From Strigamia acuminata (Eukaryota; Arthropoda; Chilopoda; Geophilomorpha; Linotaeniidae): a stretch of DNA of 60,000 nt. Both the position numbers and the translations under genes were made by a program. The notes under the pieces are model-generated. The model did no database searches. It saw only the letters and a list, made by a program, of their open reading frames with translations, and was not told where the DNA came from. Positions 11,333-41,716 of this stretch are shown here, piece after piece (the first letter of the stretch is position 1; each line of letters opens with the position of its first letter). The stretch covers positions 45,580,581 through 45,640,580 of the forward strand of contig OX442314.1 in the NCBI GenBank assembly GCA_949358305.1. Direction: 5' to 3'.

Positions 11333-12082
11333 TTATAACGACGTGACTCGTTTTGCAGAGAACTGTTTTGGTCTTGGGGAGGGGGGTGAGCGATCTCGCT
11401 CTTGTCGTTGGCGGTTCTCCTGGCCAGCTTGAAATGCCGTAAAACTTGCGGCCATCTGCCTCACACTGTCGGCCAAAGTTAATAAGGTATCATTTGGAAT
11501 TGAGGAATTGTTAGAGGTATGCGATTGATGCGAGCGAGGGGAAGTATTTAACCGTCTACGCGGGGTCGATTGGTTATTCAAAATTGGATTATTTACAGGC
11601 GGAGGAGTTGTGGGTCTGGGTAGCGATCCGTTAGTTAAATTATTTCCATTATTTGGTTGGGTTAAGGTTGCTTGGGCTTGCGCTTGAACGTTGGCTAGTG
11701 CTTGGGTAGCGGCTGCTGCTCGAGCGTCGGCGGCGGCCTGCGCATCGAGAGCGGCTTGGACATTGATGGCGGCCTGAGCATCGGCGGCCACCTGAGCGTC
11801 TATTGCGGCTTGAGCATCGGCTCGAACCTGTGCTTCCTTATCATCCAAAGCTTGTAACGACTTGGTAATAAAATCGTTGATGCCAACATAATTCGCTGGG
11901 TCTAATCCCATTTTTGCGCCTAAATTCAAAAGCGCTGCCAAGTCAATAACTTCAGGATTGGTCAGATCCAACGTTATCGGCGGGGTTTGGCTACTTCCAC
12001 TCTGGGGTTCAATGTTACTAGTATTCAACGCGCTTGGCGATGTAACGACCTTGGGGTTGGGAAGAGGTGGTCTGGGTGCCAT
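11333..12082 (-). CDS. Gag-like protein, N-terminal Ala/Gln-rich part (retrotransposon)
   Basis: 249 residues with a proline-rich start, then a long alanine-rich segment with repeated DAQAA units that would form a helix or coiled coil, then a Pro/Ser/Asn-rich linker. It ends at a TAA just after a C-rich stretch (minus strand CACCCCCCTCCCC, about 11383-11395), where the capsid frame continues one base over. A one-base indel or a recoding site would explain the split. Confidence 0.55.
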   Translation of the reverse strand: MAPRPPLPNPKVVTSPSALNTSNIEPQSGSSQTPPITLDLTNPEVIDLAALLNLGAKMGLDPANYVGINDFITKSLQALDDKEAQVRADAQAAIDAQVAADAQAAINVQAALDAQAAADARAAAATQALANVQAQAQATLTQPNNGNNLTNGSLPRPTTPPPVNNPILNNQSTPRRRLNTSPRSHQSHTSNNSSIPNDTLLTLADSVRQMAASFTAFQAGQENRQRQERDRSPPSPRPKQFSAKRVTSL

Positions 12083-13656: not shown

Positions 13657-13658
13657 CT

Positions 13659-16741: not shown

Positions 16742-16943
16742 TGTTAGATTCGGTGGAATAAAGTTCACAACTCACATACAAGATGAATAAACAAGTATAA
16801 TGTTCCAAACTAATATCAAATTACACAGGTTGAGTACACACGCATTACAGCTTCATCGTATCAGTATAACAATTCCCATCATTCCTAGCAACAACAAAAG
16901 ATAATCTCAAACAAGGTATAATTAAATAACAAACTCTCTAACA
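16742..16943 (-). repeat. copia-1 3' LTR
   Basis: 202-bp LTR, TGTTAG...TCTAACA, same sequence as 21647-21848 as read by eye. Confidence 0.93.
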
Positions 16944-17006
16944 AATCCCCCTCTTGATATTATAATTGTACACTCATTAAAAATAAAAACATCACTTATA
17001 AATTAT

Positions 17007-20000
17007 TCAAATATCATTGTTCATTAAAATGTCCATCACTTCTTTAATTTTCACTCCGGATAAATTCTTGGTTAGGAAATCTGCTAGTTGTTCTTCTCCG
17101 GGGACATGCACTGCTTCCAATCCTTCATTCTTGATTAAATCCTTGGCCAAATTTACCCTTCGATTCAAAAATTTCGTCCGCATCTTGTGCGTGCCTTCTG
17201 TCATCATTGTTATTACATTCAAGCTATCGCAATAAATTTTTCCTTTTCCTTGTAATTCGTTCTTGCTTATATCTTCAATTAAATTCCTGTACCACATTGA
17301 TTCTTTGACACCCTCCGTGAATGCTTCCAATTCACTTTCTGTGGTTGATTGTGCCACAAAACTCTGTTTCTTTGATTTCCAGTGAATCAAATCCTTTCCG
17401 TACAGAATTAAAACTCCCGAATACGATTTGCTGTCTGGGGTTTTGTCCCAACTTGCGTCTGTAAAAACTTCCAATTCTTTTCCTTCACTTCCGTACGTCA
17501 AACCGTATTCAGCTGTCCCTTTAAGGTAACGAATTACTCTTTTCAATCCATCCTCGTGGATTTGTCTTGGTTCCTGATTATATCTCGATAAGTTTCCCAA
17601 AGTAAAGCTTATATCTGGCCTGGTATGTGTCGCCAAATATAATAGTCTTCCTAATAGCTCTTGATACGCTTTCGCATCCACTTTTTCACTTTCTGCGCAT
17701 TCGTCGATATTCTGGTTCGGTTCACCTGGGGATTTTGCTGGATTACACTTGTCCATGTTGTACATCTTCAGCAAGTTTTGTAGGTAAGCTTGTTGGTGCA
17801 CTACAATTCTTCCTTCCAGCTGGTCTAATTGCATTCCCAGTACGGCCTTCGCATCTCCAATAGTGACTAAATTTACCGTTTTTCGCAACTTTTCCAAAAT
17901 TTTGTTTTCATATGTTATGTCGCTAGCAACTGTTAACATGTCGTCTACGTGTAGCCCTATTATCATATATTCCACTTCTACAAATATATAATATAAGCAT
18001 TCGTCATCTTTGGATTGTTGTAATCCGGTCGACTTCAGTATTTTGTCAATTAGCTCATTCCAAGTTCGTCCACTTTGTTTCAGTCCATATATGCTTCGTA
18101 TCAAAAAGCAAACTTCATCTTCTCTTCCTTTTTCCTTGAATCCATCGGGTTGTTCCATCCATATTTTTTCCTTCAATTTCGCGTTCAAATACGCTGTTTT
18201 TACATCGTGTAATCGCACACGTTTCCCACGCTTTGCTGCAAATGCAAATATAAATCTCACTGATTCAATTCTAATCACTGGCGAGTATGTTTCTTCTACA
18301 TCAACTCCATAAGTTTGAGCACATCCATTAGCAACCAATCTCGCTCTGTATCTTCCCTCTGTTCCATCTTCATTTGGTTTGACTTTGTAAATCCATTTGC
18401 ATTTTATCGTTTTTCTTGCTTTCTCTCTTTTTTCCAATTTCCATACACCCAATCTCTTCATTTCCATCATTTCTTCTCCCATTGCCTCGATCCATTTGTC
18501 TTTTTGATCACTGTTCATTGCCTCCTTGTATGTCTTTGGTATTTGAATTTCGTGTGTTGTCAATACAAATCCCTTTTCTTTTATTCTTTCAGATCTTCTT
18601 ACTCCTTGTTTTTTCAATGCTTCTTCTTTTTTATTCTTTTCAATTTCGTGTTTTCTCTGCATTTCTTCCTTGGTTGTTCCTTTTGGTCTTCCTCTTTTTC
18701 CTTTTTCGTGATTCTCATTGTTTGTTGTATTCTGCTCATCATCATTTGGCATCATGACGTTTCCTTCGTTTTCATGTTCTGCATTTTGAATCTCTGTGTT
18801 TTCTTCCTGAATTTCTTCCTCGTTTTCAGATGACACTATTCTATCCCCGTTGCTCCCTTCTTCTAGATCGGGTTCCTTTTGTTCATTAATGACCTCTTTT
18901 TCATCTGTTGACAAATCGATGGTTTCTTCGTCTTCCTCCTCCGAGCTGTCGTCCACTCTTGGTGTGTTTGTCTCAGCAATTTCTCCTTTGTTTTTCCATT
19001 TATGCATTCCCTTTGTGGTCTCATCAAATTTGACATCTGATGTTTCATGAACTTTGTTCTTTTTAAAATCATATATGCGGTAGGCTTTCCTGTTTGTCGC
19101 ATATCCAATAAAAATTCCCACACTGCATTTGTCTTCCAACTTTTTTCTGTGTCCTTTTCGTAACATGTACGCCGTGCATCCAAATTTTTTGAAATATGCC
19201 ACGCTTGGCTTGTAGTCTGACCACACTTCTTCCGGCGTCAATCCGTGTATTTTGGTTACACAATGATTTCGAATTTTCATCGCTGTAAGTGCCGCCTCGC
19301 CCCAAAAATATTTCGGCAATTCTGAGTCCTTTAGTAAACACCGGATCATTTCCATTATTGTCCTGTTTTGTCTTTCAACAATGCCATTGCTCTCGGGCGT
19401 GAACGCTGTCGTCAATTGGTGATGTATGCCTCTCTCATTTAACCAATGTTCAAAACCGTCCGACGTAAATTCTCCCCCGTTGTCAGATCTCAGAAATTTC
19501 ACTTTCTTTTCTTTCTGTCTCTCCCATTTTTCAATTTGCGTTTTTATGGCTTCTTCTGCTCCATTTTTCCTTTCTAACAGCGAAATGTTGATTTTTCTGG
19601 AAAAATCATCGACCATTATCATAATGTATTTTTTCCCAGTTGGGGTTTTAGGTTTGAGCGGCCCCATCAAGTCCACGTGAATCAATTCAAGCACCGTTTT
19701 TGACTGTCTATCTGTGATTGTCTTGTGCGTTTTTCTTGTCAGTTTGCTGGTGATGCAGACGTCACATATTTGCCCTTCTTCTCTGTCCTTGCACTCTATC
19801 CCCCTCACGATATTTTTCGTCTTCATCTCGCTAATTGCGCCGAAATTTACGTGTCCCATCCTTTCGTGCCATGTTTTAATTTTTTCATGGGCTATCAGTC
19901 CTCTCTCTCTTGGCATCAGTTGGGTTTTTATCACGTATCTGTCTCCAATCCTTTCTCCAAACATTGCGTATTTGTTGCATGTCATCTTCATTTCATTTTC

Positions 20001-21539
20001 GTGAGCAATTCGAACTTTTTCCTTGTCGTACACAACAATAAATCCTTTATCCGTCATTTTCGGCACTGACAACAGATTTTCTGTAATATTTGGTATATAC
20101 AGAACATTTGTTAATAAAGTCTCAATTTTTCCCTCGTCTTGACTGACTCTGATGTCTCCAATGGCTTCCGTGTTTGTTACTCCCGACGCTGTTTCTATTT
20201 CTCTGCAGTCATCTCGTGCATTCATCAACCAGTCTCGTTCTCGTGTAATGTGGCTAGTCGCGCCAGAGTCGGATGTCCATTCAATCTGTTGTTCATTCGT
20301 TTCGGTCTCTGTTGTTTTTTCTCTCACCATCAAGGTTCTTTCCATTTTCGTCCCATTTTCATTTTTTTCACAGTGGCACACCTTGATTTTTCGTCCGGTT
20401 GACACGAGTGATTTGCGCGGAATTAATTCTCCATCTCTGTCTCGTTTGAATTCCGTTTTCCATATTTTCTCTTCTATTTCATCGCAAATGTGCTCCGTTT
20501 TTATTTCTCTCGCGGTCATTAGGTTTTCTTTTGGTCCTTTTCCTTTCCCGCGATGTCCACTCGTTCCACGTCCTCTCCCACGACCTCTGCTGGCATTGTT
20601 TTCTGTTTTCTTTTCGTCTCTGCAATCTGCGCTGATATGACCCATTCGCCCACAATTGTAGCATTTTGGTCTGCTTCTACAGTCCTTTTTATAATGCCCT
20701 TTGCCTGAGCAATTATAACACACGATGTTTTTGAATTCTCTTGCTTTGTGAACATTTTCTGTGGGTTTTCTTTCATTGTTTTGTTTCTCTCCCTCACACA
20801 GTTTCAGTCCACTTCTCAAATCGGCCATTTTTATGTCTGTTTGAAAATTCAGCGCTTCTCTGGCATTCTGGAACTCTCTCCTCAGTCCGTTTTTTATATG
20901 AAAAATCAATTCGGTTTCTTCCATCTTTCCTCCAGCCTGCAAAAAACACTGCCTGAGTCCCTGTGCTCTGTTGCAATACTCGTCAATGTTCTCATTTTTC
21001 TCCATTTTGATGTGGGTCACCTCGTGATGCGCTTCCAGTTTTGTTCTCTCTGCGGTGCTTTGCATGTCTGTTTTTATTTGTTCCCACAAAGTTTTTGCAT
21101 TCCGTTCATGCATGTAAATCATTTGTTTTGACTCACACATGTTATCAATCATTATCATTTTTGCTTTGGCATTCATATCATCATATGCATTCCACTTCTT
21201 GTCAGCATCATCTCCTTTCACCTGACTTTGAGGTGGTTCATCCTCTAATATCACACTTTTCCATAATTTTTTGCCTCTTAATCTGTCCTCCAATCTGCAC
21301 GCCCACAAAGCATAGTTGCTGTCGGTGAGAGCGGGAATTCCTCCTCTATTGTCGTTTGGTGGCGCCATCTTGTGTTCGGAATCGCTACTATCACTGCTTT
21401 CACTTAACGTACTGTTTTGTGTGTTTCTGCTTTCACTGCTGTCCGTGTTTTCTTCTTCACTACTTTCGGTGCTTTCTTCTTCACTGCTTGGTAGTTTGAT
21501 ATTCTCCTCTCCTATTCCTTGTTGTTTCCAAAAATTCAT
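17007..21539 (-). CDS. copia Gag-Pol polyprotein (1510 aa, intact)
   Basis: One frame with all Ty1/copia domains in order. Gag has LTDSNYALWACRLEDRL near residue 72 and two CCHC knuckles at about 274-287 (CYNCSGKGHYKKDC) and 293-306 (CYNCGRMGHISADC). The protease active site DSGAT is at about 424. Integrase has an HH-CC zinc region (HERMGH ... CDVC) and catalytic DLMGP, SDNGGEF and ESNGIVERQNR. RT contains ETYSPV and LHVDDM (VDD core). RNase H has FTDASWD, TESELEA and YCDS, ending near HVPGEEQLADFLTK. Domain order integrase before RT defines copia. The true start may be a later Met (about residue 58, MAPPNDN). Length and lack of stops fit a functional element. Confidence 0.96.
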   Translation of the reverse strand: MNFWKQQGIGEENIKLPSSEEESTESSEEENTDSSESRNTQNSTLSESSDSSDSEHKMAPPNDNRGGIPALTDSNYALWACRLEDRLRGKKLWKSVILEDEPPQSQVKGDDADKKWNAYDDMNAKAKMIMIDNMCESKQMIYMHERNAKTLWEQIKTDMQSTAERTKLEAHHEVTHIKMEKNENIDEYCNRAQGLRQCFLQAGGKMEETELIFHIKNGLRREFQNAREALNFQTDIKMADLRSGLKLCEGEKQNNERKPTENVHKAREFKNIVCYNCSGKGHYKKDCRSRPKCYNCGRMGHISADCRDEKKTENNASRGRGRGRGTSGHRGKGKGPKENLMTAREIKTEHICDEIEEKIWKTEFKRDRDGELIPRKSLVSTGRKIKVCHCEKNENGTKMERTLMVREKTTETETNEQQIEWTSDSGATSHITRERDWLMNARDDCREIETASGVTNTEAIGDIRVSQDEGKIETLLTNVLYIPNITENLLSVPKMTDKGFIVVYDKEKVRIAHENEMKMTCNKYAMFGERIGDRYVIKTQLMPRERGLIAHEKIKTWHERMGHVNFGAISEMKTKNIVRGIECKDREEGQICDVCITSKLTRKTHKTITDRQSKTVLELIHVDLMGPLKPKTPTGKKYIMIMVDDFSRKINISLLERKNGAEEAIKTQIEKWERQKEKKVKFLRSDNGGEFTSDGFEHWLNERGIHHQLTTAFTPESNGIVERQNRTIMEMIRCLLKDSELPKYFWGEAALTAMKIRNHCVTKIHGLTPEEVWSDYKPSVAYFKKFGCTAYMLRKGHRKKLEDKCSVGIFIGYATNRKAYRIYDFKKNKVHETSDVKFDETTKGMHKWKNKGEIAETNTPRVDDSSEEEDEETIDLSTDEKEVINEQKEPDLEEGSNGDRIVSSENEEEIQEENTEIQNAEHENEGNVMMPNDDEQNTTNNENHEKGKRGRPKGTTKEEMQRKHEIEKNKKEEALKKQGVRRSERIKEKGFVLTTHEIQIPKTYKEAMNSDQKDKWIEAMGEEMMEMKRLGVWKLEKREKARKTIKCKWIYKVKPNEDGTEGRYRARLVANGCAQTYGVDVEETYSPVIRIESVRFIFAFAAKRGKRVRLHDVKTAYLNAKLKEKIWMEQPDGFKEKGREDEVCFLIRSIYGLKQSGRTWNELIDKILKSTGLQQSKDDECLYYIFVEVEYMIIGLHVDDMLTVASDITYENKILEKLRKTVNLVTIGDAKAVLGMQLDQLEGRIVVHQQAYLQNLLKMYNMDKCNPAKSPGEPNQNIDECAESEKVDAKAYQELLGRLLYLATHTRPDISFTLGNLSRYNQEPRQIHEDGLKRVIRYLKGTAEYGLTYGSEGKELEVFTDASWDKTPDSKSYSGVLILYGKDLIHWKSKKQSFVAQSTTESELEAFTEGVKESMWYRNLIEDISKNELQGKGKIYCDSLNVITMMTEGTHKMRTKFLNRRVNLAKDLIKNEGLEAVHVPGEEQLADFLTKNLSGVKIKEVMDILMNNDI

Positions 21540-21646
21540 TCACACGCTGCTCGTTGCACTGATTGGTTTCGGTTTTCGTATCGCTGCTCAAAATGTTTTT
21601 CTATTCACTTCTCAGTGCTAAGAACACTAACCGGCCTCTGCTACCA

Positions 21647-21848
21647 TGTTAGATTCGGTGGAATAAAGTTCACAACTCACATACAAGATGAATAAACAAG
21701 TATAATGTTCCAAACTAATATCAAATTACACAGGTTGAGTACACACGCATTACAGCTTCATCGTATCAGTATAACAATTCCCATCATTCCTAGCAACAAC
21801 AAAAGATAATCTCAAACAAGGTATAATTAAATAACAAACTCTCTAACA
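21647..21848 (-). repeat. copia-1 5' LTR
   Basis: 202-bp LTR. The PBS complement ends directly against it at 21646. Confidence 0.93.
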
Positions 21849-21853
21849 TATTC

Positions 21854-22186: not shown

Positions 22187-25100
22187 TCAGTTATATAGAG
22201 CATTGTAAAGTTTCTGAATAAAAGAAAAAATATCATAAGACATGATGTGCATTAGAGTGAGCATAGAAACTCCAAGAGTGAGTCCCAATGCATTTCCAAT
22301 GTCGGAGATTAAAGCTCCGAATGAATAATGGAATTCTTCTTTTATGGACTCAATCTTATTTGTATACATGTTGCACATTAATAAGAAAACAGAGGCCACT
22401 ATCTTATTTGGATAAGTGAGTGTCGTAAGTTTGTAAGTCAATATTTGACAAGGTTGTGGACATGCGCATTCTTTTTCGACATTGGTTGATAAATGAATTT
22501 TGTAATACAATCTGCGCACATCTTTGGCCATTGATGAAGAATTGCACATCATTGTGTTCTCCTTGATGGCAAATGGCATACTAACAAAAACGATACAAAA
22601 GTACAATCAATTATTAACACATATTTTTGACAGCAGATTAATGAGATTTATTGTTTTTCCAGCTATTTTTTGTACATGACCAAACACCACCTTGCAGAGG
22701 CCACACCCTTTTTTTAAAAAAAAAACAAGAAAAATGGCGACTCCAGAAATATTTTGATGGTAGAATCAGAATCTGTACATCATTATCTATGTTGTAACAA
22801 AATTTGGTGAAGTTATAATGATTTGTTTTCAAGTTATTGAAGATTTTGAAAAAATTGTACCAAAGTAACTCCGGTTTGCGGTCAGTGTTGTGCGCGTTAC
22901 AGTAATGGCATTACTGGTAACGACGTTACCATTATATGGTACGTGTGAAAACCGAGGGTTTTACGCATATTTTTTATTACTTTTATTTGTAGCAAGTTCA
23001 TTTTTTTAATCTTTTGATTTTGTATTTTCTGGTATTTGTTATCTACATTTATTTTCCCTTTAAACTCCACCTATTTACTTGTACTCAGCAATAATCCCTA
23101 CCTTCTCACCCTAAAACTTCAATCCTTAAACTTCCACTTGACCTTTCTTGGAATCGACTAATTGAGGTCAGATAATTCCGCTCTCCAATCAGAGAGCGCC
23201 ACATACCCTTTTACCCCCTTTTACCTCTAGTCTTGAATAAAATTACCAGTGTGTTTTTTCTACTACTCAAGAGAAGGTCTCCTTTATTTTATTTCCACAT
23301 CTACACTTTTCAACCAAAGACTTTAAGATAATCTACGAATGTGATTTCACAGTACGTAACTTAATTTGGCCATGTAACGTAACGGTAATTCGTTACTTTT
23401 TTTGTTGTAACCGGTAATTCGTTACTTTTTTTGTTGTAACGGACATTTATTAAACGTTTGGTTACGTTTTCGCTTTGTATCCAAACAGCAGTAGGGGATT
23501 GTTTGATCAATTTTTGATCAATTTTTAATGTTTTTTGACAATTTTCACCTATATTTCTAATCGGTTTTGAATGTTTTTTGATAGTTTTTAACCATTTTTA
23601 GTCAGTTCTAATATTTTTTAACAATTTTTAAAAATAATTTTTATTTGTATATGCAGCAGTGTGTGCTTAAACCTAATGTTCAATTATGCCAAAAATTTGG
23701 TTTTATGAACACTCCTGTGCCCAATTATTCAATTCACAAAAATAAACTAAAAAACTACGTAGTACATCTTAAACCAAAAAAGTAGAAGTTGGAAATTTGT
23801 TTAAATGTAACGATAATGTAACGATAACGGTAATTTAGCTACCTAAAATGCAGTGTTGTATCAAACGAGAACTAATAGTTCGTGTTCGCGAACTTAGTTC
23901 GTAGTTCGCGAACTATGAACGCGAACTAGTTCCCCGTTTTGAAAGAACGGGAAAAACGAACAAAGTTTGTTTTTTTGACGCGAACTACGTTCTAGTTCAG
24001 TTCTAGTTCGTTCACCGGACGTTTTATGTCACAGCCAATCATTGACGATTTCTTTAAGCATGAGGCTCGATTGGAGGAATTTATCCAACACACAAAATCG
24101 CGGTATTTTTTTAAATTTACGACTTTTTTCTCGATTTTCGAACACGTGGCGAAGATCGCTGAATTTTCGGTTTCGGTTTTTCGTCGTTTCCGGGCCAACG
24201 AACAGTCCGTTTGTTGTGTTCTTGGCACCAAATTGTGCGCCAAGACTTCATCTACAAGGTTTTGTGGATACTTACAATCGTTTTCGGGCCGAAATTTGGA
24301 CTTTTTCGTCCGTTTGCGATCGGCGCGATCTCGTAGAATCGGTAGACGTCGCCCTGACGTTTTCCTTCGAAAGCATGGATCTGCTGGTCGATTGTTGGAT
24401 TGAAACGGGGCTAACACCCCTGAATCTTCTCGATGAATTGTGGAAACGACTGGGGAAAAACACGGAGAATGGAGACCCCACAGTTTACAGTATAAAATGG
24501 TGTAAATAAAAATTTGAATTTGCAAAAAAATATTTGTAAAGTGAACTGAACTAGAACTGAACTAGAACTGAACTAGAACTTAGTTCACTTGGAGTTTTGG
24601 GGGTGAACGGGAACTAGAACTAGTTCCCTAAATTGAAGACGGTGATGAACGCGAACTAGAACTAGTTCGCGATTTAGTGAGCAAGATACAACACTGCTAA
24701 AATGTAATGGTAACGGTTGGTAACTAGTTACTTTTTTTGCCAAGTAACGGTAACAGTAACTATAGTTACAAAATTCCAGTAACGCACACAACACTGAAAT
24801 TCAAATGAAAAACGAAATATAATTTTGGCTAATAGCCCTTGTCAAACTATCGTTAATTTAATTCCCAGCCTCTTAACTGGTAAATTGGGTAAACTGACTG
24901 TTGGTATTTTGTAGCATTTTATAATACTTTTTTTTGTTTGGATATTCGACTCCAGGTGGTGCCACCTTTTGTATTGTCTTTTGTTATTGTCTTTTCTTTT
25001 TGTTTAATTAATCATTCCTGGAGTGTCTCTCGAAGATTAGAGTTATTGCTACATTGCATGTGAGTTATTGAATATAATTTGCTTCTACATTTTGGTTAAA

Positions 25101-28100
25101 AGACATTGGTGTACTGTGAGCTCTGGTTTTATTTGTGACACTGACGAAGTAAGTGTGTACAGTTTATTAATACATAAGTTAAATATCTGACCTGCAGACT
25201 TGGAGTTTTTTAATTCTGTTTGCCAAACAGTTTTGTTTGCAGTGATAATATTCACTCATATTTGGAGCACACGGGTTTTGAGGGGTGTTCAAGTGTTCCA
25301 TCTAATACATAAAAAAATAAGGTTTATAAAATAATACAGGCATGCATTTTATTTATCAAACACTAAACTGATGTCGTTTTGAAAGTTAGCTAAAACTTGT
25401 TTCAATATACCGAGCGCTATTCGCAAATTTAATTTTTTACCCGCACGCATTTTGAGGCCCGTTGCTAATAGAGGCCAGCGGAGAAATTGAATGTAAAGTT
25501 AGTGACTATCGTCTCTTCTATTTAATTTACCTTTAATACTTTAAACAAAATTATGGAAAATCGTGTAGAAGGAAGTTCTACTTTGAATGTATTCGGGAAA
25601 TTTGGATCTCTTGGAGGACTGAAATAAACCTGAAACAAAACACAGAAACAATTTATACTGAAAACTTGCCAATTAAACTTCTTACATTTGAAATGTTTGG
25701 TTTGCAAATATTGTCTACTTCTAATATCGCAATAAAAACTCTTGACAATGTTCTATAAATTCCAGGCACTTACAATTAGAAAAAAAAATTATGAAATGGA
25801 ATTGAAGCATTCATCATAAGGGTAATTACCAAATGAATGTTTCACGCAAACACCATCTGTGTAGTTTAATGTGGTCCTGGTATTGTTATATGTGTTAAAC
25901 ATGGGCACCTAAAAAATATGTACGAGCCAATCAGACAGTGGCAGAACTATTGAGCCTATAATAGTAGGCTCTAAAAAAAATTATTTTTGTTACTAAGGAC
26001 AGGATTTCAGTAATAACAACAAGCAATTGTAGCTAGGCACTAGGTCTTCTCTTTGTTGCCAAAAAGTATTGTTCCAAAATATTTATTTATTTATTTTTTT
26101 CTATTTTTGCCCATTTCAATTCTAACTTACTGCCTGTAGTTGGTTGCAATACACCGCAGGCTAGGAAAAGCTACAATAATCCTCACAAAAATCTCGCAAA
26201 ATCTACAAAAACCACCCAAAATTCTTCAAAAACCTAAAAAAACCAGCCAACACTACCAAAAATGGAGGTTTGTAGCAATTGTAATTATATAAAATTATAT
26301 ATAAAGTTATATAAAATTTTATGCAAAATTATATAAAAATCCCTTTTTTCTTTTTAAGTCTTAATATACAATAGTTCATTTTGGAAAAATTTAATGCACT
26401 GATGATGAAGTGAGGCGCGGAAGATGGCTTTTCTTAAAAATGGATCGCAATGATAAAAATGTTTGAGAACCTCTGTTTTAGAGTAAATGACTTACAAAGT
26501 TTGCCATTGTCTCACGGTCCATCAGTTCAGTCTGAAATTCCTTACTCCAAAGTGTCTCTACATCGATTTCATTGAAATGTATGAGATCGTAAGCATCCAC
26601 TTTACAATTAGTTGAAGTCATCTTGAGGTACCGGTCGAAATAGAGTTTCTTATTGTCAATGAGTTCTTCACTATGTGGCCCTGGACAAACAATGATGTTT
26701 GGATATGTGACAACTGCAGGATCTTCAATCTTGACTGCTTTCTGAATGGGTCCTGATAAATATCTGTTTATTCGATTTTGCAGAATGTAACAACAGAATA
26801 GAGTGCAACTGAAATAAATTGCATAAATCCATTTGGGTTTGCTCTGTATGTGTTCCGTTTTTATTTTCCGAGCAAACATTTTGAATCTTTTTTCGTGTTT
26901 CTTGAAGTGGTTTTTAAATTTGTTAACAACGTTGTTGCGGTAGCTTTTCTGCCATCTCTTATTTCTTTTTGAACAACCAATTAGACAATCAATAAGAGAA
27001 AGTATTGAAAAACCCAACCAAAGACCGAGATTTCCACCAAAGTCACAGAGTAGACTGATTAAGTCATAGAGCCATCGTTCTTGAAACACAGTTATGTGTT
27101 GATCAGCCAAGTTGAAAATGCACCGAACTTTGTTCAAACTTATGATATCTATGATCTCTATTTGTATGTCGTAAACTTCATTTTTACAACTTCGAGTACA
27201 GTTGCAGTAAGTAGTTGGTGTTAATCCTCCTATTCTGTTCCGATGTTCTTTGATCAAGTTGACTGTGGCTTCAGAATTGTTGCAGACATTGTCGCATTGC
27301 TTCAGAAATGAATATGGTATGCTAATAGTGGTAAACAAAAATGATTCTTTTTTTTAATTTAAAAGTTATCAGGGATTGAATGTTTTTCACTATACAGTAT
27401 GATTGTTTGCAATTAAAAAAGTTAATATTTTAGGACCAATGAATATAAGCTTGTTTGTCATTTTGATTCTTTAATTTGATGTGTTATTTTATCACATAGT
27501 CAATAATTGTAAGTAATGTATGACTTATGCCTTACCAACAGGGATCATTGTCGAATTTCCGTTGGATGCATTGTGTACCACAAGATCTAAACTCGTCATT
27601 CGGCAGACAGGGCTCTTTTTTCGTGCTTAAAAAGGAATACTAGAAAGAAATTGCATCAATGTGTACAAAACAAAGTTTTTTGGATGGTAGAATGTCTAGT
27701 CAGGCAAGATTATGCTCCATCTATAAGGGGGGGGAGGGGGCGCTACTGTCGCAAAAAAATATATCGCGAATCTAGAAATCATGCAATCAAATGCGACCAT
27801 TGTGCTTAGTGTCTACGGGAAACTTTTGGCCTAAAAGTTTTTTAGACAAATGGGTTTGTTTTAGAAGTGTGTGTGTAATATAAAACCGAAATTGTAAACA
27901 GAATAAATCTTAAATTGTTTTATTTCTACGGATTATTTATCCAAATGCTGATTAACATGAATACACGTTACGTGTGGGACTTTCGGAACATTACCTGAAC
28001 GTAATTTATGTTTACCCGGCGCCAATTTGAAAGCTTGCATTTATACATTTATTCGCGATTTACGGATTCGCGGTACATTAGATTCGCGATTTACAGATTC

Positions 28101-31086
28101 ACGGTACATTGGATTCGCGGATACACAATTTGCGATTCGCGATTTAATTACGTGTGCAATTAAATCGCGAATCGCGATTCACGGATTCGCGGTTCATCAG
28201 ATTCGCGTCATGCTATCTGACAGCAAAAAAATTCGCGATTTCTGGATTCGCGATTCGTTTTTTTGCGACTCTAAATGCGCCCCTCTATAAGTTGGGCCTA
28301 TTTTCCAATTGGCTGAGCCTCATTACTCCTAACTGTGGACTGTGTGCTACCACTAGAAAAAGTAGTTCAGTTTTATTTTTACTTTTTTTGATTATTTTAA
28401 TATTTGAAATGATATAATGTTTGTATTTGAAAAAAAAATGTTTTTTCAATTCATTGCTTGCTTTGTCAGGAAAGCAAACAATTTTCTAATTTTTTTATTG
28501 GTTGATTTGTCTGGAAAGCAGCCAAAATGTCAGCCAGTAATTTGAGCTATTTTTATGTATCACTACACAAGTGAAAAGGCTCAGCTAATGGAAATCGGCC
28601 CAACTTACAGTGAGCCAGAGTATAGTTTTGACAATAAACCAAGTGTCTGAATTAGATTCAGTATTAAAATACTAGGCACAACCAGAAAGAAATTTAGACT
28701 AAACAGCATTTTACCGGGCTGAAGTTAGCATCACATTCACATTCGCCCAAACTACAGATAGAAGAAATCCCAATTTTTTTTTACCACAGATTTTAATGGT
28801 TTTTACACCAAAAGAAAGAGGACTTTCTCCTTAACAAACCCGGGAAACCACAAGTGTCTACCCCTCTTACTTGTTAGTTTTTGAGCAGCAACCATCTGAA
28901 TATAACGCAAAAAAGACTGGTACTAAATTTCCGAATCTGGTGCCACAGATTTAAACTGGAATATCTCAACAACCTGGGGAGCCTGCTGGAATGCATGCTG
29001 GGATGCATGCTGGGATGCATGCTGGGGAGCCTGCCGGGGAGCCTGCCGGGGAGCCTGCCGGGGAGCCTGCCGGGGAGCCTACCGGGGAGCCTGCTGGGGA
29101 GCCTACTGGAGACCTGCTGGGGAGCCTGTGGGGAGCCTTCGAGTAGCCTTCGTGTAGCCTTCGTGTAGCAAGAACGGAAATCAAAAACTCTGAAATGCAA
29201 AAAAGCTGAAATGCAACAATGCTGAATTACAAAAACGCGGAAAACAAAAACCCTGAAATCAAAAATGCTAAAATCAAAAATGCTAAAAACTTGGAAAATT
29301 AAGAGGGCTGCAGCGTTGTCCTTTTGAGGGTTTGTAGAGGAGAAAGTCCTCTATCATTTGGTTTTTGAAAAAAAAGAATCTATTTTCACGTTGTTGAGAT
29401 ATTCCAGTTTGAATCTGTGGCACCAAATTCGGAAATTTAGTAAAAGTCTTTTTTGTGCTATATTCAAATGGTTGCTGCTCGAAAACTAAGAGAGGTAGAC
29501 ACTGGGGTTTGTTTCGGAGAAAGTCCTCTTTCTTTTGGTGTAAAAACCATTAAAATCTGTGGTAAAAAAAAAATTGGGATTTGTTCTATTTGTAGTTTGG
29601 GCGAATGTGAATGTGGTGCCAACTTTAGCCCGGTCAACATTTTAAACAACACATTTAAACTTCTTTCCTTGATTGAACTGCTACACTGGCGGCCGATTTT
29701 ATCTGTTTCCAGTTGCCGTGGGCAAGCGCTGAACATAAACAACACCAATGAGTGTGTTCCTAACATCACTAAAAAAAAAGGTTATCGTAGTAGACAAGGA
29801 TTTGTCACATTACTTTTGAGCAGTACTGAGCAGAGCAAGAGTAACGAGCAACCATATTTCTTAGCGTTAGCACAGACAGTGCAAATAAGTAGCAATGCGT
29901 ATGTTAGTTTACATGTCTGGGCTAAGTGCAAAACCAACCCTCTTATTGTTGTTAAATGTTGTTTGATATAAACTATTATTATTATTAATTCATATCTAAA
30001 AAATAACATAAAAATGGATTCGGATTTTAGGGTGAACAATTTTTCCACATTGTACACATTTTCTGGACTAAAGAAGAAGTTGTCGTAACCATACTAGTTT
30101 AAGTTAAAGAATTAGTTTACGTATTTAACATTTTTACTTCTGTGATGGTGAGGCCAATAGATATTTCAGCTGGGTGAAGTATATGTATTACGTATTGAAA
30201 ATCAAATGGTGTATCCGATGTGAGCTAAAATAGAATTTTGTAAAAAATGAGACTTAAATGTTGAATAATTGTTATTTGTACACCGTACGAAATGGGGTTC
30301 AGTAGTTTTAAGTATATCCAATTTCATTATCATCGTTGTAAGTTCAGAAGCCTCCAATGACCTGTTAACTAAATATTAAATGTAACTGTAACTGTAAATG
30401 TAAATGTTTAGAAAATTGAGGGTCTCTGTTAACCAAAAGATTGTAGGTATGCAGGTGCCTCAACTCTTAATGTTGAATCATTGTGGCAAAATAAAATACT
30501 GTCTATAATACTTAACTGTTTACTTGCGTACATGTGCCAAAAGGTGAAGTTCTGTGGTTTTGATGAAGCCCTAAAGGTTTGTTTGGCTGTAAGAATAATG
30601 AAAAAGTAAAATTTAGATGCACGAATAAAAGTATGCACCTACCTTAGCGCTTCCAAATGTGGACTTTTCAATTACATTGATACGGTAGTCCAGATTCCAA
30701 ACTTTTGACAGGTCAAAATCAAGTAATTTTATGAGTTCATCCAAATTGTCATTTAATTTATTTTGTTTCGTATAATTCATTATGTATGAATTATGTTGTT
30801 TGCAAATAGACAGAGGTGGAAGTAGAAAGTGTTCTATCTTCCTTTGATGGACATCAACAGCCTTTGGTTCTGTCAAGAAGTACGAGATGCGATCATGCAT
30901 TTGGTAGAAATAAATGAGAGAACAGATGACAATGAGAAATGCCCAAAGAATACGAAATGTGTGTGAACGCGTGCAGTCTAGAAGGATGTAAAACTCTGGT
31001 GCTACATTCTTATCTTTATTGATCGACTCGATGATTTCAGATGTTATTATCCGCTTATGTCTTCTGAATCTGCGTTGATTAAGCAT
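22187..31086 (-). CDS. Tandem double DEG/ENaC channel (two subunits in one polypeptide)
   Basis: Ten proposed exons: 30639-31086, 30524-30586, 30289-30368, 30138-30224, 27536-27639, 26496-27321, 25846-25908, 25531-25629, 25192-25301 and 22187-22580. All phases agree and give 757 residues. Unit 1: TM1 ([16 protein letters not shown]), [11 protein letters not shown], knuckle/palm exons, Cys-rich exon ([11 protein letters not shown]), CNCTRSC, and TM2 [15 protein letters not shown] with the G-x-S filter. In the same exon follows a basic linker (about 50 residues) and unit 2: TM1 ([18 protein letters not shown]), [10 protein letters not shown], then DGVC|VYFSPP (the family 'G.CY.F' motif), Cys-rich exon ([14 protein letters not shown]), CACPQPC and TM2 [13 protein letters not shown]. 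The family forms trimeric, amiloride-type cation channels from two-TM subunits; a four-TM concatemer is unusual. The start ATG follows an in-frame TAA; an upstream 5'UTR intron (GTGAGT...TATAG) is shared with the plus-strand paralogue. Confidence 0.8.
22883..24796. mobile_element. Outer hAT-like repeat with CAGTGTTG ends
   Basis: The ends cagtgttgtgcgcgttac and gtaacgcacacaacactg are inverted copies; subterminal GTAACGG words occur on both sides. A second element is nested at 23851-24696. No clear 8-bp target duplication flanks the outer ends. No transposase seen. Some of 22940-23330 may be yet another insertion. Confidence 0.6.
23851..24696. mobile_element. Nested hAT-like element with 8-bp TSD CTAAAATG
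   Basis: Ends CAGTGTTGTATC / GATACAACACTG; subterminal AGTTCGCGAAC-type and GAACTAGAAC repeats. The 8-bp duplication CTAAAATG is at 23843-23850 and 24697-24704. The core (about 24026-24509) is unusually gene-like: a plus frame starting [20 protein letters not shown] and, one frame over, a stretch ending [19 protein letters not shown] before a stop at 24509. It may be captured host coding sequence broken by frameshift. Confidence 0.75.
27720..28292. mobile_element. MITE-like repeat rich in GATTCGCG, in a DEG/ENaC intron
   Basis: Imperfect inverted ends: ctataagggg..gcgct.ctgtcgcaaaaaaa on the left and the complement of tttttttgcgactctaaatgcgcccctctataag on the right. 28040-28260 is packed with gattcgcg-type words in both orientations. 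No protein is called; open frames here are low-complexity. Confidence 0.5.
28690..29665. repeat. Inverted repeat (~280-bp arms) around a 12-bp minisatellite
   Basis: Arms at about 28690-28975 and 29383-29665 are inverted copies (gaatctggtgccacagattt and its inverse, agaggactttctcc and its inverse). The spacer has tandem ggggagcctgcc units (about 29020-29110) and a tail of short aaaatgctgaaa-type repeats. It lies in the unit 1 intron of the minus DEG/ENaC gene. Apparent Pro/Gly-rich frames through it are repeat artefacts. Confidence 0.65.
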
Positions 31087-34419: not shown

Positions 34420-36985
34420 CAACATTTTCATATTTTTCAGCCCAAAACGACATTTTCATATTTTTCAGCCCAAAAACGACATTTTCACATTTCTCAGCCT
34501 AAAAACAGCGTATTACAGACCACATTTGTGAAAATGGCATTTTCCGTCTATTGTCACCTCTTTTCGCCACTTTTCAGCCAAAAAACCGGTTTTTTTTTCT
34601 CTTCGACCATCTATTGGTGACACAGTCTAACAATTAACTTCTTCTGGTTTTCGTGTATCAGTTAGTAGATTTAAATTTTTTATATTTAAATTTAAATTTT
34701 TAAAAAGTGAAAAAGTTTTTGGTTGGCCTACTCTACTTACAGTTGCAAAGTTTTGCTTCATGGAATCGGTCGGACTCGTTCGTGTTGGTTCGTATTTACA
34801 ATGCAATGTAAAACAGATGTTTTGATAGAAGAGTTGTGGAAAATCAATGACAGACACACGCGACAATGTGGATTATCATAATTATCAGTTCAGTGTCAGA
34901 ACCCCAAACATTAAAATATTTTTCCAATAGAAATAATTATTGTAATTTGCAAACATTTGATTGACATAATTATTGACATTTTTGATGTCAATACGTTTCT
35001 GTCCAGGGTTTCTACAACTACGATGCACATTTTGAACAAAAAAAAATTATCTGACTCAAGTCCTTTCAAAAAAGACCAAATTGGTTGCCATTTTAAAAAT
35101 ATTGAATTTATTTCCAGCCAACAGTTTTGAAATATTTGATTAAGCACATGAGTTATCATTAACCGATGACTCCCAAATCGCAACTGTCTAATCATATCGT
35201 GAGACGTGGACCAATAACAGTATATTGTCAAACGCATTCACAGGGCACTGCAGATGCTCTTCCTGTTATTAGATGTTCACAAAGAACACTGCAAACCAGT
35301 AATTGGCTTCTTGAACAACCCACTCTAAGTACATATATTTAAATACAGACACACAGTTTTTCTGTCACTTATTCGAGTATTTTACGCTGTACATGAATAT
35401 TTCATAGAACAACAACATAATAACTCTTGAGGCAGAAAAATATGATAACTGTAATTATTCTCCAGGAAGGATAATAATTGGCATGAAGTGATGTTTCGAG
35501 CAAGTCCGAAGAGATGTGACTAACTGCCCCTGCGCACTGATCACTTTTCCCGCAGCACAATGCACTTGGCGCAGCTCTCGCCTCCTGCGAGCGCCTCATG
35601 CTGTTCTCCAGGTGGAGCTGCGGGCCTTTGATTTACCAATCGGTAAATCAAAAGACCATCATACCCTTAGACATCAATAAAGCCATAACCAAAACTAAAT
35701 TTGTGTCTTTTGTGTGGTATTTCGTATTGTGTGTGTTACGTCCAGCGCCTCGTGGCCTTCCGCTGACCATGTGGCGTCCGTCCGAACACTCACAGGGACT
35801 TCATCAATATGGTGGGTTGGGTTGCTGAGAGGTAACCAAACAACCAAGGCCAGTGCCAACTGGTGGCCAGTTGGTCACAAGTTTTGGCTTTACTTCTGAA
35901 CTTTTCAATCCATTGTGAGTGTTTGCTATGTATAGATTAACTGTACTAATGCCAATTATTATTCTGCCTGGAGAATAATTACAATTATCATATTCTTCTG
36001 CCTCAAGAGTTATTATGTTGTTGTTTTAAGAAATATTCATGTACAGCATAAAACACTCGAATAAGTGACAGAAAAACTGTATGTCTCTATATTTAAATAT
36101 ATGTACTTAGAGTGGGTTGTTCATGAAGCCAATTACTGGTTTGCAGTGTTCTTTCAGAACATCTAATAACAGGAAGAGCATCTGCAGTGCCCTGTGAATG
36201 CATTTGACAATGTACTGTTATTAGTCCACGTCTCACGATATGATTAGACAGTTGTGATTTGGGCGTCATCAGCCAATGATAACTTATGTTTTTAATCAAA
36301 TATTTCAAAACTGTTGGCTGGAAATAAATTCAATATTTTTAAAATGACAACCAATTTGGTCCTTTCTGAAAGGACTTGAGTGAGATATTTTTTTTGTTCA
36401 AAATGAGTGTCGTAGTTGTAGAAAACCTGGATAGAAACGTGTTGATGTTGACATCAAAAATGTCAATAAAAATGTCAACTATATGTTTGCAAATTACAAT
36501 AATCATTTCTATTGGAAAAATATTTTAATGGTTGGAGTTCTGACACTGAACTGATAATTATGATAATCCACATTGTAGCGTGTGACTTTCTAGTGTGTTC
36601 CTACTGTCATTGATTTTCCACAACTCTTCTATCAAAACATCTGTTTTACGTTGCATTGTGAATACAAACCAACACGAACGAGTCCGACCGATTCCAAGAA
36701 GCAAAACTTTTCAACTGTAAGTAGGGTGGGCCAACCGAAAAACTTTTTCACTTTTTAAAAATTTAAATTTAAATATAAAAAATTTAAATCTACTTTATGT
36801 ATATACGAAAACCAGAAGAAGTTAATTGTTAGACTGTGTCACCAATAGATGGTCGGAGAAAAAAAAGCGGTTTTTAGGCTGAAAAATGGACGGAAAATGC
36901 CATTTTCACAAATGTGGTCTGTAATACGCCGTTTTTAGGCTGAGAAATATGAAATTGTCGTTTTTGGGCTGAAAAAATGTCGTTT
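34420..36985. repeat. Large inverted repeat (arms ~1.05 kb) between the two DEG/ENaC genes
   Basis: The left arm (about 34420-35484) and right arm (about 35949-36985) are diverged inverted copies; examples are cacagtctaacaattaactt against its inverse at 36820-36840, and ataataattggcat against atgccaattattat at the loop edge. The 464-bp loop holds an LTR-like piece. Short open frames in the arms are not shared between arms and are not called as genes. Confidence 0.75.
35515..35794 (+). mobile_element. Solo LTR related to the gypsy LTR at 49 kb
   Basis: Begins TGTGACTAACTGCCC and ends CCGTCCGAACACTCACA. The 3' part closely matches 49530-49668 (ATACCC.TAGACAT, caataaagc, gtccagcg..cgtgg, gtggcgtccgtcc). 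At 280 bp it is shorter than the 624-bp LTR there, lacking the middle. No clear target duplication. Confidence 0.7.
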
Positions 36986-36999
36986 GTTACATTTCTTTT

Positions 37000-37852
37000 T
37001 ACAATACTTAACCTCGTCTAATCAAGGCAGCTTGCAAATTATAAATAGTTTTGTCATCTAACAATCAGGGATTTCTCACCGCCCAGCGCCCGAGTAGAAA
37101 GGTGGCTATTTAAGACTTCCCACAAACTTGGACGCATGCACAATTACGCTCTCCGCGTATACCATATGTGTTATTTAAATCTGACCTCAATTTAGGATTG
37201 TGTGACAGCAGAAAACTTAAAAATATATTAGAAATATATTGGAAAATATATTATGAGATTTCAAAATTTCAAAATTGAAAATGCTTGTAAAGTTATTGCT
37301 AAAAAAAAAGTCATGGAAATGGTGTCTTTTTTAGATTGTAAATATGTTGAGAAAAAACTACCGTACCACACCGTTTAATAGCCCGGGCGTTAAATTTTTT
37401 TTAGCCGCCTCTCCGGCGCCAGTTTGAAACCCATCGCTTAAGCGGGTCCGGCGCATAAGCAAAAAATCACCCATTTTTTGGAGAAAAATGGTGATTTTTC
37501 CCATTAAAATCTCCATTTTTTTGCAAAAAATCTGATTTTACTGGATCCAGCGCTTACTCAGGGCCGGTGCCAATTCGTGAAATCGCCGCTGACCGCCCGG
37601 CGCTTAAACGAGACCGGCAACTAACTGAACCCCGGCTATAACACGAGACGCTACGGTAATTTTCAATTGATTGTAAATCTAACTTCCAAAGTTGTCAAAT
37701 CCATCTACCTTTATATTTACAATTCTTAACAAGTGAGTAAATCTGATTTTTGTCAGTGTTATTACTCATTTGTTTATTCATTAACAAAAACTATTCCTAG
37801 AAAACATTCAATAACATATTACGGTAATACAAACTTTTTTCTGTATAGATAA
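37000..37852. other. Non-coding upstream of the plus-strand DEG/ENaC gene
   Basis: Contains the 5'UTR intron donor GTGAGTAAATCTG (about 37731) and acceptor ctgtatag (37848), both shared with the minus-strand paralogue. 37383-37625 has GC-rich GGCGC words of unknown origin. No other gene seen. Confidence 0.45.
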
Positions 37853-40800
37853 ATGCTTAATCAACGCAGATTCAGACGACATAAGCGTGTAATAACATCT
37901 CAAATCATCGAGTCGATAAATAAAGATAAGAATGTAGCACCAGAGTTTTACATCCTTCTAGACTGCACACGTTCATACACATTTCGTATTCTTTGGGCAT
38001 TTCTCATTGTCATCTGTTCTCTCATTTATTTCTACCAAATGCATGATCGCATCTCGTACTTCTTGACAGAACCAAAGGCTGTTGATGTCCATCAGAGGAA
38101 AATAGAACACTTTACAGATCCACCTGTGTCTATTTGCAAACGACATAATTCATACGCAATGAATTATACAAAACAAAATAAATTAAACGACGATTTGAAT
38201 GAACTCATAAAATTACCTGATTTTGACCTGTCAAAAGTTTGGAAATTAGACTATCGTATCAATGTAATTGAAAAGTTTACATTTGGAAGCGCTAACTACA
38301 AGGTAGGTGCACATTTTTATTTGTATATCTAAATTTTATTTTTCAATGTTCTTACAGCCAAACATACCTTTAGGGCTTCATCAAAACCACAGAACTACAC
38401 CTCATGGCACATGTACACAAGTAAACAGTTAAGTATTAGAGACAGCATTTTGCTTTGTTTAACTGTTAGAATTGAATATGAAATTGACAAAATATAATTT
38501 TTTGGTTTCATTTATTGTAAACTGCTACATTTATTATTTAGTTAACAGGTCATGGGAACATTCTGAACTTACAATGATGATGAAACTTCATTTAACTAAA
38601 ACTACTGAACCCTATACAGTACAGTATAAGCTTATGTATAAATAAAATTTATTCTACATTTGAGTCTCATTTTTTACAAAATCCTATTTTAGCTCTCATT
38701 GGATACACCATTTGATTTTCAATTCTTTATACTATTACTTACCACTTCTGAAATTACTATTGGCGTCACCATCACAAAAGTAAAAATAGTGAATAACTAA
38801 CTTAATTCCTCAACCTATTCTAACAACTTGTTCTAATGTCCACAAAAGTGTACAATGTGGAAAAATTGTTAATCTTAATATCATAAAACATTTTTATCTT
38901 ATTTTTTTTAATATAAATTACTAAATGTTCATATTAAACAACATTAAAAGGGTGAGTTTTTTTAATACTCAATCTAATTCGGACACTTGGCAAGTTTGTC
39001 CGAACTAGAGAGAGCGTCATACACTCGCCTCACTGAACATTCTTCCGATTGAAAAACGTTGTTTTGTACACATTAATCCAATATTTTTTCTAGTTTTCCT
39101 TTTTAAGCACGAAAAAAGAACCCTGCCTGCCGAATGATGAGTTTATATCGTGCGGTATACAATGCATTAAACGAAAGTTCGAGAATGATCCCTGTTGGTA
39201 AGCCATATGTTAGTTTGTCCAATGTTGAGCTCGAATCTGTCCTCTTCTTAAACTACTCCACGCGGTTATGAGACTCACTTACCTGAATTTACCGCTCGTT
39301 AAAGCGGTTACCCAAAGAATGATACAGATATGTGTAACATAAATAATATGTTTATTGAACCCGAAGGTACAAACAAAGTTCTCGAATATTATATTTAGGT
39401 ATGACGAAGTCGTCCTCACTGGTGGTGTGTTCCAAGATGGCGTCTCGTCTTGCGGCGTGGCGGCGTCCTGGGGCGGCTTATGTGAGGACGTCTCATCTTT
39501 GTTTGGTGGTCTGTTTTGGGCTCACGCTTGCGCTTATGTGGAATGCTCAGTTAAGAGTATGATATCCTGGCTTGTTGTCTAGGGTTTTGTTTGGTTATCA
39601 GGCGATACACACAACGGCGGATGTTTCTTCTTCCCGGCGATACACACAGCGGCGGAAAAATACTTCTTTGTACCAAACTTAGGCTCACGAGGCTGTTTTC
39701 CTTGTGAATCGCTAAACGTTGTATTTTTATCACTCTCTTGGCAATTTCTGCCAAAGTGATTTGATTAGTTGGTAACGCACAAAATAACAAAATCACGTAG
39801 AAATGTATCCTGAGTCCCTGGTTACCCCTTGCTAGTTTGGCTAAGGCTTCATCGATAGGACGATGTACTTTTTAGGTGTTGTATTTTCTGTTTTTGTGTT
39901 GGTTCTGCCCTTCAAGTGCTGAGGCAAATTCCTCTGCACAAAAGGGCTTCATCAAGTGATCGAAATCATCCAATGAGAGGTGAGTCGAATCCCCCAAACC
40001 CCCTCAGGGCAGACGCCTGCCCATTGACAAAATGTCAATGCACTGACAAGTGAGAGAGCCGGGTCAGATTGTTTAGTCGACGGTCGTTTAGTCGACAGTC
40101 GACTTAAATCGTTCATTTTGTCGACAAACGTTTTGTCGGCGGTATTTTTTTTGGCCTGCTAGTCGACCAACTGTTTGGTTACGCCTTGTCGACAGTACAC
40201 CTTGTCGACGCACGTTTTGTCGACGTTACCGTTTGTCGACGCACGTTTTGTCGACGAAATTGTCAATGTCAAGGGGAGGGCATGCATTCTTGCGTTGGGG
40301 GGTAACGGTTTTGACGTGCACGTGGCCAGAGATTCGATTCCCACCCACGCGCGTTCGGTGCTTGGTCCGGTTGCCCTTTTTGTGTGCGATTCACACGTCG
40401 ATCCAATTGGGAAAAGCTTGTGCTTTTGGCCGTGAGAAAATGCCTCGCTACGTGCACACCTGGGCTCGAGCGGCTATTGTAGAGAAGGCGAAGGACTCGG
40501 CAGTCCCGCCCGCTTTTCCAGCGGGGGTGGCCGCAGTTTAAAAGAAAAGTCCATCCTTCCTCCCCCTTCTTAAACCGTGTTCATAAAATGGAATAAGATC
40601 TTCGGATTCTTGTTGCGAGTCTTGTCTGATCTACAACTACACTCTTTGTTATTGTCACTGACCTTTTATTGTCTCATTACACTTTCCATTACACTTTTCA
40701 CTTAGTCGACGCCGATTAGTCGACGCCGATTAGTCGACGCCGTTTAGTCGACGCCGTATAGTGAAAAACATTCAATCCCTGATAACTTTTAAATTAAAAA

Positions 40801-41644
40801 AAAATTATTTTTGTTTACTACTGTTAGCATACCTTATTCATTTCTGAAACAATGCGACAATGCCTGCAACAACTCTGAAGCCACAGTCAACTTGATTGAA
40901 GAACACAAGAAAAGAGTAGTAGGAGTAGCACCAACTAATGACTGTAACTGTATTCGAAGTTGTCAAAATCAGGTTTACGATATGCAAATAGATATCAGAA
41001 ATTTGGACAAAATTCGATGCAATTTCTACTTGGCTGATCAACACATAACTGTGTTTCAAGAAAGATGGCTCTATGACTTAATCAGTCTACTCTGTGACTT
41101 CGGTGGGAATCTTGGTCTTTGGTTGGGTTTTTCACTACTTTCTCTTATTGATTGTCTAATTGGTTGTTCAAAAAGAAATAAGAGATGGCAGAAAAGCAAC
41201 TGCATCAGCGCTGTTAAAAAATTTGAAAACCACTTCAAGAAACACGAAACAAGATTCAAAATGTTTGCTCGAAAAATAGAAATGGAAAACATACAGAGCA
41301 AAGCAAAATGGATTTATGCAATTTATTTCAGTTGCACTCTATTCTGTTGTTACATTCTGCAAAATCGAATAAACAGATATTTATCAGGACCCATTCAGAA
41401 AGCAGTCACGATTGAAGATCCTGCAGTTGTCACATATCCAAACATCATTGTTTGTCCAGGGCCACATAGTGAAGAACTCAATGCCAATAAGAAACTCTAT
41501 TTTGACCAGCACCTCAAGATGAATTCAACTAATTGTGAAGTAGATGCTTACGATCTCATACATTTCAATGAAATTGATGTAGAGACACTCTGGAGTAAGG
41601 AATTTCAAACTGAACTGATTGACCATGAGACATTTGCAAACAAT
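37853..41644 (+). CDS. DEG/ENaC channel paralogue, plus strand (6 exons, 3' end unresolved)
   Basis: Exons 37853-38306, 38358-38420, 38542-38618, 38693-38779, 39094-39197 and 40828-41644 join in phase to 534 codons and correspond one-to-one to the first six exons of the minus-strand gene. Present are TM1 ([16 protein letters not shown]), the Cys-rich exon ([12 protein letters not shown]), CNCIRSC, TM2 [15 protein letters not shown], the basic linker, and unit 2 TM1 with [10 protein letters not shown]. The donor GTAAGT after 41644 is intact, but exons for the rest of unit 2 were not found; homology fades near 42.1 kb, before transposons. If the donor is not used the frame stops at 41668. This is either a 3'-truncated copy or one whose last exons lie beyond the window. 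Confidence 0.7.
39331..39960. repeat. Dispersed repeat family A, copy 3
   Basis: The fullest copy: its first two thirds match 5185-5790 and its last third matches 1-190. It lies in the last intron of the plus DEG/ENaC paralogue and is absent from the same intron of the minus gene. Confidence 0.65.
40067..40756. mobile_element. GTCGAC-rich MITE-like element
   Basis: Both ends carry repeated TTAGTCGAC/TTTGTCGAC words (about 40070-40260 and 40705-40755). The right edge at 40756/40757 is exact: the flanking tatagtgaaaaacattcaat is continuous in the minus paralogue intron (near 27400), which lacks the element. Near 40330 a GATTCGATTCCC resembles a pol III B box, but no matching A box or tRNA fold is convincing. 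Confidence 0.6.
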
Positions 41645-41679
41645 GTAAGTCACTTACTCGTACTTTAAGATATATTAAT

Positions 41680-41716
41680 GTACAATCCTGGTCGTAAAAT
41701 GTCACCAGGATTGTAC
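41680..41716. repeat. Perfect 13-bp palindrome
   Basis: GTACAATCCTGGT, 11-nt loop, ACCAGGATTGTAC. It lies 36 nt after the donor of the last recognised plus-strand DEG/ENaC exon. Role unknown. Confidence 0.7.

Follow-up and report, generated by a model that had tools for sequence, protein, structure and literature searches.

The window, by which we mean the whole 60,000-nucleotide stretch of Strigamia acuminata DNA analysed here, contains a channel gene on the minus strand, reading from an ATG at 31086 to a stop codon at 22187, and an inverted copy on the plus strand at 37853-41644 (Table 1). Ten exons with agreeing phases had been predicted for the gene between 31086 and 22187, and these were recovered in full, with all nine introns bounded by GT...AG. 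They are named here E1 to E3 and E5 to E11; E4 is an extra candidate stretch, and E6 is the fusion exon, in which the two halves of the chain (A and B) are joined. The chain length of 757 residues given in the original prediction needs correction to 762, with the sole stop at the end and 2289 coding bases open in copy 1; the difference is caused by exon edges and leaves the claim unaffected. A TAA lies in frame immediately 5' of the ATG in both gene copies, which fixes the start in both. Just 5' of the ATG (31204-31087; 37740-37852 in copy 2) there are a donor-like GTGAGTAAATCTG and an acceptor-like CTGTATAG site common to both copies, which suggests an intron in the 5' untranslated region.

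Table 1. Exons of the two-unit channel gene and of its inverted copy.
Feature	Position	Strand	Content	Basis
E1	30643..31086	-	start codon, N-terminus, TM1 of half A, first part of ectodomain A	ORF; donor GTAGGT; copy 2 counterpart 87.8% identical, 156 aa
E2	30524..30586	-	ectodomain A	GT/AG sites, phase 0-0; conserved in copy 2
E3	30138..30224	-	ectodomain A	GT/AG sites, phase 0-0; open in copy 2
E4, candidate or relict exon	29974..30093	-	about 40 residues of ectodomain A	
E5	27536..27639	-	cysteine-containing exon of ectodomain A	GT/AG sites, phase 0-2
E6, fusion exon	26496..27321	-	end of ectodomain A, TM2 A, linker, TM1 B, start of ectodomain B	
E7	25830..25908	-	ectodomain B	GT/AG sites, phase 0-1
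E8	25686..25768	-	ectodomain B	GT/AG sites, phase 1-0
E9	25531..25629	-	ectodomain B, position matching the probable relict E4 of half A	GT/AG sites, phase 0-0
E10	25192..25301	-	cysteine-containing exon of ectodomain B	GT/AG sites, phase 0-2
E11	22187..22580	-	end of ectodomain B, TM2 B	acceptor AG, phase 2, stop TGA
Copy 2 E1	37853..38302	+		tblastn, alignment; donor GTAGGT
Copy 2 E2	38358..38420	+		tblastn, alignment
Copy 2 E3	38693..38779	+		tblastn, alignment
Copy 2 E5	39094..39197	+		tblastn, alignment
Copy 2 fusion exon E6	40828..41644	+		stop-free; splice sites as in copy 1; one 9-nt in-frame deletion

The chain was originally described as carrying the order TM1-ectodomain-TM2 twice, and this layout is borne out by a Pfam ASC match in each half together with hydropathy and motifs. 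The whole chain matches Pfam ASC (PF00858) at 1.1e-40, and the halves match separately at 1.8e-22 (A, 80.5 bits) and 5e-20 (B, 72.4 bits), the cut-off being 23.6. Hydropathy places helices at residues 43, 331, 395 and 726, with 19-residue means of 1.94, 1.94, 1.27 and 1.46; the weakest, TM1 of half B, is barely over two ectodomain segments that are not transmembrane (1.26 and 1.25), so that the helix call for TM1 B rests mainly on homology. Each half has, as claimed, its own CxCxxxC motif (CNCTRSC at residue 272 in A and CACPQPC at 670 in B) and its own GxS filter (GLWLGFS at residue 332 and GLTLGVS at 731), a G/S-x-S filter in TM2 being a feature of the DEG/ENaC/ASIC family; there are 18 cysteines in the A part and 16 in the B part. 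A His-Gly pair before TM1 is common in these channels and is not taken here as defining; the HG dipeptide was looked for in halves A and B and is present in neither. By profile, layout and filter, each predicted unit belongs to DEG/ENaC, and it is the predicted chain that departs from the usual single-unit form.

That the halves are joined within one exon holds as well: the stretch 27321-26496 reads from A through a linker into B. The frame of this fusion exon is open over all of its 275 codons, where the other two contain 21 and 16 stops, and Pfam ASC is found in it twice (6.2e-17). The linker of 48 residues contains 17 K/R and 2 D/E, strongly basic as expected for the inner side of the membrane, and agrees with the inside-inside linker that had been proposed, although its cytoplasmic place is itself deduced. 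DEG/ENaC channels are trimers of single-unit chains with both ends inside the cell, and an inside-to-inside linker is therefore allowed. Hidden splicing that would separate the halves was considered and rejected; a simple pattern detects nothing resembling an acceptor within E6, and GTRAG donors occur there only at 26545 and 26515, close to the 3' end of the exon. A fold prediction for the fusion exon, made from two sequences, was uninformative (pLDDT 31.4).

The two halves are related to each other, aligning with 22% identity over 356 residues (72 bits), a score reached by none of 500 shuffles of half A. This likeness exceeds that of either half to any solved structure, the bit scores coming from different programs and being only roughly comparable. 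Exon by exon, three of the six pairings are significant—E1 with the B part of E6, E5 with E10, and the A part of E6 with E11 (0/2000 shuffles each)—and three are not: E2/E7 (749/2000), E3/E8 (1971/2000) and E4/E9 (644/5000). These last pairs are individually too short or too diverged for detectable likeness. Three of the five exon boundaries are aligned and equal in phase (E1/E2 with E6/E7, E4/E5 with E9/E10, and E5/E6 with E10/E11), one is equal in phase and a few residues off (E3/E4 with E8/E9), and one is unequal in phase (E2/E3 with E7/E8); the pairs E4/E5 with E9/E10 and E3/E4 with E8/E9 hinge on the uncertain E4. The first part of E6 thus resembles E11 and its last part resembles E1, and the exons before each part-match (E5 and E10) end aligned and in the same phase. 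E6 has the appearance of a terminal exon fused to the initial exon of the gene that followed it.

The original prediction spoke of two complete subunits. Two TM1-ectodomain-TM2 units are there, but the completeness of half A is doubtful, since without E4 it is about 35 residues short; 45 residues separate two conserved cysteines in half A, against 80 in half B. E4 would fill this gap. In copy 1 it is open and has a good acceptor AG, with a weak donor (GTTTAT) that resembles none of the 14 donors in the two copies; in copy 2 it is broken by indels of 11, 1 and 5 nt and its acceptor is gone. Its likeness to E9 is no better than the shuffles given above, and including it lowers the Pfam ASC score of half A from 80.5 to 73.3 bits. 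E4 may still serve as a normal exon, but it is more probably a relict that has gone out of use, with a loss that preserves the frame. Half A may accordingly be a reduced domain.

The inverted copy, which had been overlooked earlier, holds E1, E2, E3, E5 and E6 with their splice sites. Its fusion exon is 91.8% identical to that of copy 1 in DNA and 84% in protein; a match of this exon to IRK, at 18.2 bits against a cut-off of 22.7, is taken as chance. Lenient tblastn found no E7 to E11 of copy 2 in 41601-60000 (best E = 0.97), and these exons may have been lost or may be situated past base 60000. Divergence between the copies is uneven (30642-29952; 38303-38948): the middle introns and E3 are about 78-81% identical, and both ends are 92-96% identical including noncoding sequence, which suggests gene conversion at the ends of the copies. 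Between the head-to-head copies, at 34670-36787, there are nested inverted repeats, 143 to 314 bases long and 86-93% complementary.

Other features were also annotated in the window. A Copia-type retrotransposon at 16742-21851, just beyond the stop codon of the channel gene, has 205-base terminal repeats that are 99.5% alike and an open polyprotein frame of 1510 residues on the minus strand. Downstream of the copy 2 fusion exon there is an open copia-type polyprotein frame (44584-48918), for which no terminal repeats were found in 41660-49044, and at 49045-59897 a Gypsy-type retrotransposon with identical 625-base terminal repeats, gag and pol; the third long frame of this element (57539-58744, 401 aa) has no Pfam match. 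Direct repeats of 2133 bases at 7765-9897 and 13658-15790, 99.95% identical, surround a gag-like frame on the minus strand (10528-11460), and would represent either the terminal repeats, of unusual length, of a very young element or the product of a recent duplication. No tRNA genes were found within the window, and a scan for GA-rich tandem patterns, irrelevant to the channel gene, found none.

Comparison of the two copies shows whether the exons have been kept as coding sequence; all of these figures cover E1, E2, E3, E5 and E6, E7 to E11 being without a second copy. The 1515 aligned exon bases contain two indels (6 and 9 bases), both multiples of three, and the 773 aligned noncoding bases contain 15, of which 12 shift the frame. 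Scaling the noncoding indel rate to the exons' own substitutions gives 12.7 expected frameshifts in the exons against none observed (P 3e-6), or 13.8 expected if the E4 stretch, counted as noncoding in this control, is omitted. For the fusion exon alone 6.5 are expected (P 0.0015), and this difference between exon and noncoding indels indicates that the exon has been kept as coding sequence. The dN/dS ratio is 0.51 for all exons (one-sided p 0.0005) and 0.58 for E6 (p 0.03), and purifying selection is evident in E1 (p 0.013), E5 (p 0.0014; omega 0.12) and the A part of E6 (p 0.033). TM2 A and its flanks differ between the copies by one amino-acid change in 54 residues, with four synonymous-only codons.

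Not every segment behaves in this way. E3 is fast evolving (14 nonsynonymous and 3 synonymous changes), and dN/dS is 1.2 to 1.6 for E2, E3 and the linker, on small counts. In the linker 12 of 14 changes are nonsynonymous (dN/dS about 1.2), which amounts to nearly free evolution, and constraint on the linker alone was not detected (frameshift P 0.26); nor is selection on the B part of E6 alone significant (p 0.35; frameshift P 0.17). Only one of 174 bases differs in the TM1 B stretch, and no synonymous difference is seen there; this likeness may be due to gene conversion. The noncoding sequence just upstream of E6 is 95.8% identical over 72 bases; because adjoining noncoding sequence is equally alike, we dropped the identity of E6 as evidence of selection and used frame and dN/dS. 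As read from these alignments, the evidence of selection applies to the whole fusion exon, and to half A most.

We consider it reasonably probable that the gene encodes a natural two-domain DEG/ENaC chain, a tandem dimer whose halves were joined before the inverted copying. Two DEG/ENaC genes in tandem would have become one when the final exon of the upstream gene merged with the initial exon of the downstream gene; this joint would have formed first, and the locus would then have been copied in inverted orientation. One transcript would run across the ten exons and be translated whole into a single polypeptide with two ASC domains, each predicted to be able to fill one place in a trimeric pore. 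The function is presumably that of a sodium-permeable channel.

Annotation often wrongly joins neighbouring genes into one model, and a misassembly or a fortuitous reading frame linking two neighbours was weighed. We found no support for such an artefact here and regard it as highly improbable: the open frame of the fusion exon far exceeds its neighbouring frames (0 stops against 21 and 16), and the inverted copy carries the same joint at 91.8% DNA identity over the exon. This shared joint makes a chimeric assembly very unlikely, and we reject it as an account of the locus; its presence in both copies also means that the fusion is older than the duplication. On a different reading, an internal promoter or start yields half B by itself, in addition to the chain or in place of it, or the chain is cut in the linker into two ordinary subunits, giving operon-like co-production of two proteins. 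The linker offers a candidate internal start, a Met codon (26879-26877) that precedes TM1 B by 16 codons and is present in both copies; the linker evolves fast, as would suit a spacer or tails, and its basic composition makes cleavage thinkable. PMC3583452 cites work that reportedly found operon-like transcription for related genes in Drosophila. A separate A protein would, however, require an unseen alternative 3' end, as E6 contains no stop; read-through past the E6 donor meets a stop after 6 codons, and the A protein would then still carry TM1 B and a portion of ectodomain B. By a simple pattern, E6 also has no acceptor-like site within it. We judge this reading to be quite unlikely.

It is also unlikely, in our estimate, that the fused gene is becoming a pseudogene or that half A serves as a non-conducting tether or regulator of half B, although several features would suit such a fate: E4 is disrupted in copy 2 and has a weak splice donor in copy 1; the raised dN/dS ratios noted above (1.2 to 1.6, small counts) fall in E2, E3 and the linker; and transposable elements are numerous both within the locus and around it. 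Against it, copy 1 is open over all of its 2289 coding bases with nine of nine introns canonical, E1, E5 and the A part of E6 are under purifying selection, and half A has hardly changed in TM2 and filter from one copy to the other.

If the tandem-dimer reading is right, the question of how its domains would be arranged follows. That the native channel is built of covalent A-B pseudo-dimers, with a threefold channel filled by twofold chains, seems to us a serious possibility with somewhat less than even prospects. Such pseudo-dimers could leave one domain per chain pair outside the pore, could be completed by a separate subunit, or could, as three chains, form an A trimer and a B trimer held side by side. 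More specifically, A and B of one chain could occupy the same trimer, and the remaining place would go to a domain from another chain or to an independent subunit; a channel so built would always hold at least one A and at least one B pore lining. We think this shared trimer the likeliest single stoichiometry, though less probable than not, the alternatives being a passive half A, cleavage of the linker, or two coupled trimers. Half A, with a piece of its ectodomain seemingly lost, may be the more passive partner.

A natural fusion of two two-TM units is known in the K2P potassium channels, where two chains complete a tetrameric-type pore. The present gene would resemble these in having two two-TM channel units naturally fused in one chain, and differs in that its family is trimeric, three not being a multiple of two. 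In such a family a natural chain of two units would pose a symmetry problem that K2P-type fusions escape.

Among solved structures, the nearest are trimeric DEG/ENaC channels: half B is closest to BRTNaC1, a centipede channel (58.7 bits, over residues 33-394 of 399), and half A with E4 included is closest to PDPNaC1 (50.4 bits), with BRTNaC1 second (43.6 bits). BRTNaC1 shares the TM1-ectodomain-TM2 layout and is the solved structure that half B matches best along its full extent, yet it has one unit of 431 residues per chain where there are two here, and the similarity is remote. PDPNaC1, from the same centipede (PDB 9jf7, PMC12714832), is the best solved match of half A and has a conserved TM2 region; it is a homotrimer of single units of 421 residues encoded by nine exons. 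It differs from the present chain in being a single unit, in having a different pore filter and in the weak overall similarity. The Drosophila pickpocket cluster ppk18-ppk16-ppk11 is likewise a set of neighbouring arthropod DEG/ENaC genes, described in PMC3583452 as separate one-unit genes, unlike the fused gene reported here.

No natural two-unit DEG/ENaC chain is described among the matches listed from titles and abstracts of the open literature, subscription papers lying largely outside it; two-ASC gene models may well be present in public annotation. Among viral contigs, three stretches fit a pattern and none encodes a relative, a weak comparison as the collection is not one of animals.

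The nearest counterparts in design are engineered ASIC concatemers, which likewise string DEG/ENaC units head to tail in one chain through a cytoplasmic linker. Chains of two, three and four ASIC1a units have been made, and those of two give typical currents in oocytes (PMC4529235); that paper favours tetramers, a view disputed by others. Three-unit chains that fix composition have been made for ASIC2a/3 (PMC10329638) and ASIC1a/2a (PMC4899722). The linkers reported are short and artificial, one Asn and seven Gln (two-unit ASIC1a, PMC4529235) or 19 residues, placed between full tails. The concatemers differ from the Strigamia chain in being laboratory-made from identical or mammalian subunits (PMC4529235, PMC10329638, PMC4899722). 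The composition of mixed DEG/ENaC trimers is presented as variable and debated in PMC4899722 and PMC10329638; if our reading is correct, evolution would here have fixed an A:B composition that is variable with free subunits. The gene would then show how a pair of channel genes becomes one through the merger of a last and a first exon, subunit order and composition could be tested with a native protein instead of artificial concatemers, and the chain would be a natural counterpart of molecules that we know only as laboratory constructs.
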